A DNA stretch of 43,355 nucleotides from an uncultured Clostridia bacterium (GTDB lineage: Bacteria; Bacillota; Clostridia; Oscillospirales; Oscillospiraceae), in NCBI GenBank assembly GCA_946628965.1, contig CAMOXI010000009.1, forward strand, positions 1-43,355. The letters are read 5' to 3'. The notes under the pieces were generated by a model, which worked only from the letters and a program-made list of their open reading frames with translations, was not told the origin of the DNA and did no database searches. The first letter of the stretch is position 1, and each line of letters opens with the position of its first letter. The position numbers and the translations under genes were made by a program. Shown here one piece after another: positions 12,910 to 31,970 of this stretch.

Positions 12910-14304
12910 ATGGCATCGAAAACACTTGTCCGCAACACGCTGCTGCTCACCGGCGTGTCGCTCTGTATGCAGGCGGTGGGCATGATTTTTCAGAGCTGGC
13001 TGGCCCGAAACCTGGGCGCTGCCGGGCTCGGGCTCTGGCAGCTCACGCTGTCGCTTGTGAATCTCTGGGCGACCTTCGCCATCTCCGGCATCCGCTTCGC
13101 CTCCACCCGGCTCGTCGCCGAGGAGCTGGGGCGCGGCAGCACCGGCAGCATCCGCGCGGCCATGGGCCGCTGTCTCTGCTACGGCGGCCTTTCCGGTCTT
13201 CTCGCCGGTGCGCTGCTGCGGCTTCTCGCGGAGCCGCTGGGCTTTCTCTGGATCGGGGACGCGCGCACGGTGCGCGCGCTCGGCATCGCGTCGCTCGCCA
13301 TGCCCTGCATCTCGCTCTCTGCCTCCCTCTCCGGCTACTTCACGGCCTGCGGCCGGGTCTGGAAGGCGGCGCTGGTGCATCTGGCGGAGCAGATCGCCGG
13401 GATCGTGCTCGTGATGCTCTTTCTCCGCAGGGCCGCTTCCGGAGATCTGGAGCAGAGCTGCTGTGCGGTCACGCTGGGCCGCACGGCGGCAGATTTCCTG
13501 TCCCTGCTGCTGATGGCGTGCTTTTATCTGCAGGACCGGCTCACGCATTACCGTGCCGAAAACGATGGGAAAGCTCTCGCCGGGCGCATGCTGCGCATCG
13601 CGGTACCGCTGGCCTTCTCCGCCTATACCCGCAGCGCCCTCACCACGCTGCAGCAGCTCTGGGTTCCACGTGGGCTGCGGGCCTATGGTCTCGCCCCGGA
13701 TCGGGCGCTGGCTGGCTACGGGATCGTACAGGGTATGGCCATGCCGCTGCTCTTTTTCCCCTCCTGTCTGCTTGCCTCCGCCGCGGAAGTGATCGTGCCG
13801 GCACTCACCGAGTCCCAGGTGCAGGGAGACGCGGAAGGGATAAAAAACACCGCCGGGAAGCTTCTGCGCATGAGCCTGCGCTACTCCCTGGCGGTGTCAG
13901 CTGTTCTGTTTTTCTGCGCCGATCTCCTCTGCGGCACGATCTACCACAATCGGGAGGCCGCGCGCTATCTGCGTATTCTGGCCCCGCTGGTGCCGGTGAT
14001 GTATCTCGACATGGCGGTGGACGGCTGCCTGAAGGGCCTGGGTCAGCAGGTCTGGAGCATGGGGATCAACGTTGCGGAATCCGTCGCCGGTCTCGTGCTG
14101 CTCTGGCTGCTTCTGCCGCGCTGCGGCCTTGCCGCCTATCTCGGCGTTCTCTGGATCTCGGAGTTTTTTAATCTCACGCTCAGCGCGCTCAGGCTGCAGC
14201 CTTTTCTGCGTTCTTCTCCCGGCGCCGCTCGTCACCCTTGTGGAGGATCGGAGAGATGCGCTTATAGAGCAGGAAGGTCAGCAGAGAGACCACAAAGCCC
14301 TTGA
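12910..14304 (+). CDS. MOP-superfamily flippase (SpoVB/polysaccharide exporter type)
   Basis: 464 residues from ATG 12910 with AGGA eight bases upstream. About 12 hydrophobic helices. The N-terminus (TLLLTGVSLCMQAVGMIFQS..LGAAGLGLWQ) is typical of SpoVB/MurJ-like lipid II or O-antigen flippases, which move lipid-linked sugars across the membrane. Its last 39 codons run across the end of the convergent ECF gene, giving a 116-bp tail-to-tail overlap. The C-terminal 30 residues look like antisense filler, so the original stop may have been lost. Confidence 0.88.
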   Translation: MASKTLVRNTLLLTGVSLCMQAVGMIFQSWLARNLGAAGLGLWQLTLSLVNLWATFAISGIRFASTRLVAEELGRGSTGSIRAAMGRCLCYGGLSGLLAGALLRLLAEPLGFLWIGDARTVRALGIASLAMPCISLSASLSGYFTACGRVWKAALVHLAEQIAGIVLVMLFLRRAASGDLEQSCCAVTLGRTAADFLSLLLMACFYLQDRLTHYRAENDGKALAGRMLRIAVPLAFSAYTRSALTTLQQLWVPRGLRAYGLAPDRALAGYGIVQGMAMPLLFFPSCLLASAAEVIVPALTESQVQGDAEGIKNTAGKLLRMSLRYSLAVSAVLFFCADLLCGTIYHNREAARYLRILAPLVPVMYLDMAVDGCLKGLGQQVWSMGINVAESVAGLVLLWLLLPRCGLAAYLGVLWISEFFNLTLSALRLQPFLRSSPGAARHPCGGSERCAYRAGRSAERPQSP

Positions 14305-14920
14305 GCAGATTGAAGGGCACCACCGCGAAGAGGACCAGCGTGGGGACGCTGGTGATGGCGGAATTGACCTTGGTGCCCATGCCCACGATGACCTCCATCG
14401 GCATGCCGAAGAGGACGGCGAACTTGGGCAGCAGATAGATCGCGTTGAAGGCGCTGCCGAAAACGGTCATCACCAGGGTGCCGACCACCATGCCCCAGAG
14501 GGCGGACTTGCGGCTGGGCTTCGCGTGGTAGACGATGCTCGCGGGCAGGACGAAGGAGCAGCCCACGGCAAAGTTGGCAAAATCGCCCACGAAGGCGGTG
14601 GAGGTGCCCTTCAGGAGGAGCTTGATGCAGACCTTGATCAGCTCCGCCACCACGCCGGCCACGGGGCCGAGATAGAAGGTGCAGATCATGATCGGCAGCT
14701 CGCTCAGGTCCATCTTATAAAAGCCAGGCGCGAAAAAGAGCGGGATCTCCACCAGCATCAGCACGCCCGCCATGCAGGCAAAGATGGCGGTATAGGTGAT
14801 ATAGTGGGTGTCCGACAGGCGCTTGCGGTCCTTCACGAGCAGGCGCTCAAAGGCCACGGCGATGAGCACCAGCGCGGCGAAGATCGCGAGACAGGTGAGA
14901 ATGAACTTCAGGTTTTCCAT
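14189..14920 (-). CDS. ECF transporter S component, RibU-like riboflavin uptake protein
   Basis: 243 residues from ATG 14920, with AAGGAGG six bases upstream. Six or seven membrane helices. KMDLSELPIMICTFYLGPVAG followed by ELIKVCIKLLLKGTSTAFVGD matches the S-component signature. The FMN riboswitch and terminator directly upstream (14935-15439) point to riboflavin, so RibU is the best name. S components work with an EcfA-A'-T energising module, which is not in the window. The 3' end overlaps the flippase gene. Confidence 0.9.
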   Translation of the reverse strand: MENLKFILTCLAIFAALVLIAVAFERLLVKDRKRLSDTHYITYTAIFACMAGVLMLVEIPLFFAPGFYKMDLSELPIMICTFYLGPVAGVVAELIKVCIKLLLKGTSTAFVGDFANFAVGCSFVLPASIVYHAKPSRKSALWGMVVGTLVMTVFGSAFNAIYLLPKFAVLFGMPMEVIVGMGTKVNSAITSVPTLVLFAVVPFNLLKGFVVSLLTFLLYKRISPILHKGDERRREKNAEKAAA

Positions 14921-14934
14921 ATTGATTCCTCCTT

Positions 14935-14964
14935 AAAAAAATTACCCGAAGCAATCGCTTCGGG
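14935..14964 (-). terminator. Intrinsic terminator of the FMN riboswitch expression platform
   Basis: Minus strand: CCCGAAGC-GATT-GCTTCGGG (14945-14964) followed by TAATTTTTTT, ending just before the AAGGAGG site of the ECF gene. When FMN is bound, transcription should stop here. Confidence 0.93.
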
Positions 14965-15073
14965 CGCAATAAGGAAGGACAGGAGAAAAAATACAGTTTC
15001 CCCGTCTTCTTCCATCCAGACTTGACGAAGATGCAAGGAAGATGTGAGAGGAATTTGCGAGGCAAATCTGAGC

Positions 15074-15134
15074 CAGACGAAATGGAAAGCGCAGAAAATA
15101 CTATGTGTATTTTCGAGCATTTCCATGAAGTATG
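15074..15134 (-). repeat. Palindromic element copy inside riboswitch P6 (core)
   Basis: Core of the P6 insertion, read on the minus strand: CATACTTC (15134-15127), ATGGAAA/TTTCCAT and GAAAATAC/GTATTTTC helices around the loop, then CGTCTG ending at 15074. The complete insertion spans about 15024-15185. It is homologous to the P3 copy, which lies in the opposite orientation. Confidence 0.75.
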
Positions 15135-15289
15135 GAACAGATTTGACCGTAAAGGCGCTCACAATCTTTTTTGTATCTTCGTTACACTGTCGGTCCCGGA
15201 ATCGCACCGGGTCAGCTGCTTTCGCAGGTCGCGGACTCTCATGCTGAACGCTGACCAAAAACCTAAAGTTTCATCGCCCCGCTTTCCGT

Positions 15290-15352
15290 CATACTTCGTC
15301 AATTGCTGCGGGAAATACACAAAGTATTCCGCCGCATCAATTTCCTCGTCTG
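15290..15352 (+). repeat. Palindromic element copy inside riboswitch P3 (core)
   Basis: Core of the P3 insertion, read on the plus strand: CATACTTC (15290-15297), helices AATTG/CAATT and TGCGG/CCGCA, loop core AATACACAAAGTATT, then CGTCTG (15347-15352). The full insertion is about 15242-15402, closed by a 22-bp helix. Landmarks are spaced 48, 63 and 50 nt, against 51, 61 and 50 nt in the P6 copy. Confidence 0.75.
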
Positions 15353-15444
15353 ACGAAAACCGGCCGCGGTGCTCTTTTCAGGTTTTTGGTCGGCGCTCAG
15401 CATACCGCCGGTCGGGAATTACACCCTGCCCTGAAGACGATGTC

Positions 15445-31734: not shown

Positions 31735-31970
31735 AATAAGGCAAAAGCATGGTACTTTTCGGGTGGTAATTCATGGAATTCCCGCTGTTTTGCCTTATTG
31801 ACAGGCATGGGGAATCCTGATAAAATAAGTCATCTCAATCGGATAGGGTCTATTCGAAGCAAGATGTCGACCGCAAAGGGCGCAGCCGCGCCCGGAGCCA
31901 AGGCCATACGGACAGCCGGGTCGAATGCCGAATCCCCGCGGAATGCGGCGGCAACTTCTGTTGCCTTATT
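31735..31970 (+). ncRNA. Candidate structured RNA between truA and potA, family not identified
   Basis: AATAAGGCAA (31735-31744) can pair with TTGCCTTATT at 31961-31970, closing a 236-nt structure, or with a second copy at 31790-31799 (12 bp as AATAAGGCAAAA/TTTTGCCTTATT). Internal helices: CGGG-AATTC/GAATT-CCCG, TCGACC/GGTCGA (31867-31872 with 31919-31924) enclosing GGGCGC-AGCC-GCGCCC, TGCCG/CGGCA with CCGC/GCGG inside, and GGCAAC-TTCT-GTTGCC. No protein-like frame fits. A cis leader for the pot operon or a separate small RNA are both possible. Confidence 0.55.

Follow-up and report, generated by a model that had tools for sequence, protein, structure and literature searches.

An FMN riboswitch upstream of ribU enlarged by two copies of a mobile palindromic element, with related insertions in other species

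Within a riboswitch class, most variation lies in the peripheral helices, whose origin is seldom known. In the window analysed here (the whole stretch of 43,355 nt, from a genome referred to below as G000), the gene for a riboflavin transporter component, ribU, is preceded by an FMN riboswitch that carries two long hairpins in its loops. The locus raises the question of where these hairpins came from, and of whether the riboswitch core can still form around them. The features of the leader, with the evidence for each in brackets, are as follows.

15003..15442, minus strand: FMN riboswitch aptamer with two inserted hairpins (split RF00050 matches; 66 of 68 conserved columns)
15433..15439, minus strand: P1 5′ strand, CGTCTTC (sequence; pairing probability 1.0)
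15414..15426, minus strand: P2 with an ordinary loop, GGGTGTAATTCCC (folding of the full aptamer)
15243..15400, minus strand: insert 1 in the P3 loop, a mobile hairpin element with its tip in the riboswitch sense (R1, 90.8 bits)
15216..15227, minus strand: P4, CTGC GAAA GCAG (sequence and folding)
15195..15211, minus strand: P5, CCCGGTGCGATTCCGGG (sequence and folding)
15023..15182, plus strand: insert 2 in the P6 loop, a second element copy in opposite orientation (R1, 88.1 bits)
15003..15009, minus strand: P1 3′ strand, GAAGACG (sequence)
14973..14986, minus strand: predicted anti-P1, partner of the P1 3′ region, which may also reach the ribosome-binding site (folding of this leader and of relatives)
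14934..14964, minus strand: terminator-like hairpin and T-run, with the stem at 14945-14964 and the T-run at 14934-14940 (sequence and folding)
14928..14934, minus strand: ribU ribosome-binding site, AAGGAGG (sequence)
14189..14920, minus strand: ribU, riboflavin ECF transporter S component, 243 aa (PDB 3p5n, E 5.7e-26; PF12822)

The original prediction placed an FMN riboswitch upstream of ribU, and both parts of this assignment are confirmed. The downstream protein is RibU by its match to PDB 3p5n (E 5.7e-26) and to PF12822, and Infernal (cmscan) with the FMN model RF00050 recovers the riboswitch as two pieces, of 38.9 bits (15277-15442) and 19.0 bits (15191-15253). Since the two inserts interrupt the match, neither piece reaches the 66.2-bit gathering score, while related leaders without inserts exceed the cut-off; standard annotation can miss riboswitches that are split in this manner. 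The first piece is genuine in its 5′ half, its 3′ end is a chance match within insert 1, and the true 3′ end of the aptamer lies at 15003. No family other than FMN was found in the riboswitch region by cmscan at E values up to 1. The closure of P1 and its coordinates are as predicted, with seven pairs joining 15433-15439 to 15003-15009, and so are the two self-folding insertions of about 160 nt in the P3 and P6 loops: insert 1 measures 158 nt and insert 2 measures 160 nt, with end positions taken from folding and uncertain by a few bases. Elsewhere in the window (31868-31931, plus strand), the Rfam model SpF59_sRNA, which describes a Streptococcus sRNA, matches with 56 bits (cut-off 37.2); the relatives of this genome place it outside the streptococci.

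An intact core had also been predicted, and the core bases are indeed kept. Conservation was scored over the 68 columns that reach 95% conservation or more among 79 rows of the same genus without a full-size insertion, with long loops shortened before matching. G000 matches 66 of these 68 columns, and the three other genomes in which we found element insertions (G030, G094, and G100, see below) match 67, 68, and 67, respectively; the lowest value among the 79 rows is 65. A common change, A to G just after the CAGT at P6, is found in G000, G030, and G100, all of which carry a P6 element. In the MFE structure of the whole aptamer the core helices are kept and each insert is folded on itself. Helices P1 to P5, closing the multi-way junction, have predicted probabilities of 0.98–1.00 in the full sequence, the same as without inserts. 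When both inserts were dinucleotide-shuffled, mean probabilities for P1 to P5 were 0.94, 0.61, 0.00, 0.62, and 0.63, and none of 100 shuffled constructs reached the core probabilities of the real sequence. Shuffled inserts break the core and the real ones do not, so that in the model the core survives through the self-complementarity of the inserts; the model describes the folding of one isolated strand and is not proof for cells.

Inserts 1 and 2 both derive from one dispersed mobile element, which is a near-palindrome about 160 nt long and has a conserved tip; the two copies are oppositely oriented. The two are alike once one is reversed, and they have diverged from each other and from other copies. 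A DNA search of the genome with insert 1 found seven other sites that share its tip; the same search with insert 2 returned only itself, and further copies were reached through a structure model alone. When nine copies were folded singly, each formed a single long hairpin capped by the tip; in their alignment, 24 of 35 predicted pairs show one or more double changes. Across copies, both the tip and the internal mismatches keep their sequence. R1, a covariance model covering the inner 111 nt, was built from these nine copies and finds 14 in the same genome, including the nine. Counting G000 in each set, R1 matches 32 of 60 genomes, spread over six of 24 genera, and 78 of 102 genomes within the genus, where it finds at least 1,285 copies (a lower bound, as scoring was limited to 37 candidates per genome).

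At least 119 stretches of the genome collection carry the exact tip. Among the matches listed, the records bear labels that include Oscillospiraceae, Ruminococcaceae, Clostridia, Eubacteriales, and Bacillota, many of them from animal guts. Four stretches of viral contigs also contain the exact tip, and one element copy searched against plasmids gave no match. No family of Rfam 15 accounts for the element in the riboswitch region or at 40 other element loci; none of these 40 has the element inside an Rfam RNA, and the Rfam matches that do overlap it there are microRNA models far under their cut-offs. Among the literature matches listed, none treats, by title and abstract opening, mobile elements inside FMN riboswitches or this element. 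The family is apparently undescribed and the process rarely documented, while the riboswitch class itself is known.

Several copies stand out by their surroundings. Pairs in opposite orientation, with cores about 13 nt apart, occur at L076 (1501-1735), L077 (1378-1610), L078 (6-239), and L084 (1-204), and perhaps reflect insertion beside, or within the end of, another copy. In G000 itself, one copy (L045, 1501-2006) ends a few bases before the RNase P RNA. Another copy (G122:C18:12776-12886, minus strand) lies about 95 nt before the FMN riboswitch of that genome, and in G100 a copy of 59.5 bits (L240, 6-113) lies between the FMN riboswitch and ribU.

The ends and flanks of the copies carry signs of mobility. 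Eighteen copies from one genome (G021) were read with their flanks, which differ; 15 of the 18 start with GTAAACG, and many have a repeated 4-mer (TTAG, TTAA, TCAA, or TTGA) on both sides. Equal flanks of at least 4 nt were found at 64 of 162 copies, a raw count from a permissive search in which some lie away from the real ends. In 47 of these 64, which have ends near position 71, the ends are paired and read GG(N)AAC or GTAAAC, and the commonest flanking 4-mers are TTAA (nine) and TTAG (seven). IS5-type transposons are known to make duplications that read YTAR. Inserts 1 and 2 of the window have no clearly readable target duplications, and no autonomous transposon with the ends of the element was found in the 1.2 Mb of loci examined. 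With its length of about 160 nt, its many dispersed copies, and the terminal inverted repeats of these 47 copies, the element resembles a MITE.

FMN riboswitches were also compared across the genus. RF00050 matches 92 of 102 genomes (G000 included) in 98 rows, which correspond to 97 riboswitches when the two G094 pieces are taken together. Loops were parsed by script for 84 of 95 riboswitches; outside the 95 are those of G114, cut after the P3 region, and G005. The 11 that did not parse comprise five without a full-size insertion, three matches of 115–127 nt, and three whose P2 is extended by about 26 nt. Insertions of 100 nt or more are present in P3 and P6 of G000, P2 and P6 of G030, P4 of G094, P6 of G100, and P4 of G072. 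R1 matches these loops with 90.8 and 88.1 bits in G000, 85.2 and 77.4 in G030, 44.6 in G100, and 39.2 in G094, so that the comparison with related leaders yields six element insertions in four genomes, all in terminal loops (P2, P3, P4, or P6) and with both tip orientations represented. The first interpretation of the window had guessed element insertions correctly, and had missed that both belong to one mobile palindromic family that recurs in other species and other loops. The P4 loop of G072 (L239) holds a different palindromic repeat of about 100 nt, which starts TGTCATCCTGAGCGGAGCG.

These insertions aside, P3 in the 84 parsed riboswitches reaches at most 33 nt and P6 ranges from 6 to 37 nt. 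P6 is 6–7 nt long in 78 of the 84; the other six are three full elements and the short hairpins of G105 (37 nt), G115 (25 nt), and G092 (25 nt). At least one of these short hairpins has element-like ends, that of G105, which begins and ends with GGCAA and TTGCC. G105 and G115 are near relatives with differing P6 hairpins, and G100 has an additional P4 of 62 nt that resembles an internally deleted element. The short hairpins may be remnants of the element, a reading toward which the sequences of G105 and of the G100 P4, and only these, point.

Considering their divergent RibU proteins and different loops, G000, G030, G094, and G100 are most reasonably treated as separate cases: RibU identity to that of the window is 29% in G030, 31% in G100, and 78% in G094. 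The close relatives G033 and G102 have no such hairpins; a RibU tree did not resolve the near relatives of G000 and their P6 history. Opposite tip orientation was considered as proof of independent P6 insertions and is weakened as an argument, since a palindrome can flip in place and since the outer arms of the G000 and G100 elements and of the short G115 P6 hairpin are alike. Independence of the P6 insertions is suggested by the distant RibU types of G030 and G100. In G114 the FMN riboswitch (L238, 637-700) is cut off past the P3 region and has lost its 3′ half, with ribU still following; the riboswitch is therefore not indispensable. Eight of the 10 genomes without an FMN match also lack a RibU match, so that absent sequence or genes are the simpler reason for the missing riboswitch. 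Of 13 loci with weak RF00050 matches in G001, G006, G009, and G028, six were checked by motif, and these six are not FMN riboswitches.

About 0.5 elements would be expected in the 95 riboswitches of the genus if copies spread over intergenic sequence, assumed to be 12% of the genome, and six were observed; without the window there are four (P ~0.002 for four or more). This enrichment is only indicative, because the number of elements is a minimum estimate and the riboswitch class was selected post hoc. If elements landed uniformly over the aptamer, the chance of finding all six in loops is about 4e-4, or 0.006 without the two of the window. Hairpin loops are not a target as a general rule: flank pairing in 47 copies was not above that of shuffled partners (as high in 69 of 300, and in 62 of 300 when limited to copies with at least seven pairs), although single copies do lie in hairpins (L056, L093, and L094). 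Given that no general preference for hairpin loops was found, the loop pattern in FMN riboswitches most likely reflects selection to keep the core intact.

Two other structured RNAs of the genus served as controls. TPP riboswitches were matched in 96 of 102 genomes (114 rows); the longest measures 129 nt, and none showed such an insertion. Interrupted copies could escape this search, although the same search mode did show interrupted FMN riboswitches as partial matches. RNase P RNA was matched in 83 of 102 genomes, with four longer forms, none of them made by the R1 element. These four (L335-L338, in G064, G123, G018, and G124) are about 100–120 nt longer than elsewhere in the genus through one expanded loop. 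Their expansions were rejected as element copies, as the loop is of other sequence and its best R1 score is 12.6 bits.

We consider it probable that the ribU leader of the window is an FMN riboswitch into which one mobile, non-autonomous, palindromic, MITE-like element has inserted twice, in the terminal loops of P3 and P6. The element would have been moved by a transposase acting in trans. Its RNA would fold as a hairpin of its own, stacked on the host helix, and because the element is a long inverted repeat that folds on itself, the FMN-binding core could still form and the insertions could survive selection, projecting from P3 and P6 as passengers. With FMN bound, P1 would be held; without FMN, the 3′ region of P1 would pair with 14973-14986, and the segment thereby released could reach around the terminator-like hairpin to pair with the ribosome-binding site, so that FMN would repress ribU through P1 versus anti-P1. 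The anti-P1 helix is predicted in this leader and in some relatives, though not in all of the five leaders folded. As it does not overlap the terminator stem, control of ribU may run through the ribosome-binding site rather than the terminator, with termination, translation, or both possible.

The alternative that survives best, which we nevertheless judge unlikely, is that the insertions inactivated the switch and left ribU constitutive or silent, the core being conserved merely because the insertions are recent. The truncated riboswitch of G114 shows that loss happens, and the A after CAGT is altered where P6 carries an element. However, the inserts have diverged from each other and from other copies and so are not very young, yet the core retains 66 of 68 columns, and six of six insertions, in four genomes, lie in loops, against the chance probabilities given above. 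A much less plausible alternative makes the hairpins selected parts of an extended FMN riboswitch subclass, whose conserved tip acts in the RNA, for example in protein binding or folding tuning. The sequence conservation of the tip and internal mismatches, and the presence of hairpins in the same loops in several species, would fit such a role, but the tip occurs in both orientations in riboswitches, the close relatives G033 and G102 do without the hairpins, and most copies lie elsewhere, with none at the 40 other loci inside an Rfam RNA. An assembly artefact or misjoined repeat is hardly credible even for a draft genome of 134 contigs and 74.8% completeness whose relatives have element copies at contig ends, because clean aptamer sequence flanks both inserts inside a 43-kb contig, the inserts differ from each other and from other copies, and three further assemblies have the same kind of insertion.

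Under the insertion reading, then, a known riboswitch class has been repeatedly enlarged by a mobile hairpin family absent from the libraries searched, with its core kept and its function probably retained. Such elements look like a natural route to a bigger riboswitch without breaking the core, and these leaders offer natural constructs with which to probe the limits of riboswitch enlargement. Because full elements, another repeat, and short hairpins share the loops of one riboswitch across about 100 species, the gain and decay of helices can be followed and tested. More tentatively, palindromic mobile elements could be a main source of new peripheral riboswitch helices, inserting in loops while the core keeps working and then shrinking through internal deletions until short extra stems remain, like those in P2, P4, and P6 of relatives; selection might keep the palindrome because insertion into transcribed structured RNA would then be nearly neutral.

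The riboswitch of the window shares with the FMN riboswitch (RFN element, RF00050) its core sequence, the P1 to P6 layout, and the ribU gene downstream, and differs in its length of 437 nt, against the usual 115–150 nt or so, in the mobile hairpins in P3 and P6, and in a score under the gathering cut-off. Large hairpin insertions in peripheral loops of structured RNA are also known from TPP riboswitches with a long P3 and from rRNA intervening sequences; these resemble the present case in their position, and in this analysis a link to a dispersed mobile element was traced only for the hairpins described here. Rickettsia palindromic elements (RPE) are palindromes of about 150 bp that settle in genes and are tolerated (PMC10969869). 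Compared by description, RPE are known for in-frame insertion in protein genes, unlike the insertions in riboswitch loops reported here. The bacterial MITEs ERIC, RUP, BOX, SPRITE, and QMITE, some copies of which are discussed in the same outline as sources of terminators or regulators (PMC10969869), are likewise short, numerous, without coding capacity, and able to form stable hairpins. The present element differs from them in pairing over its whole length and in having its tip, rather than its ends, as the most conserved part.
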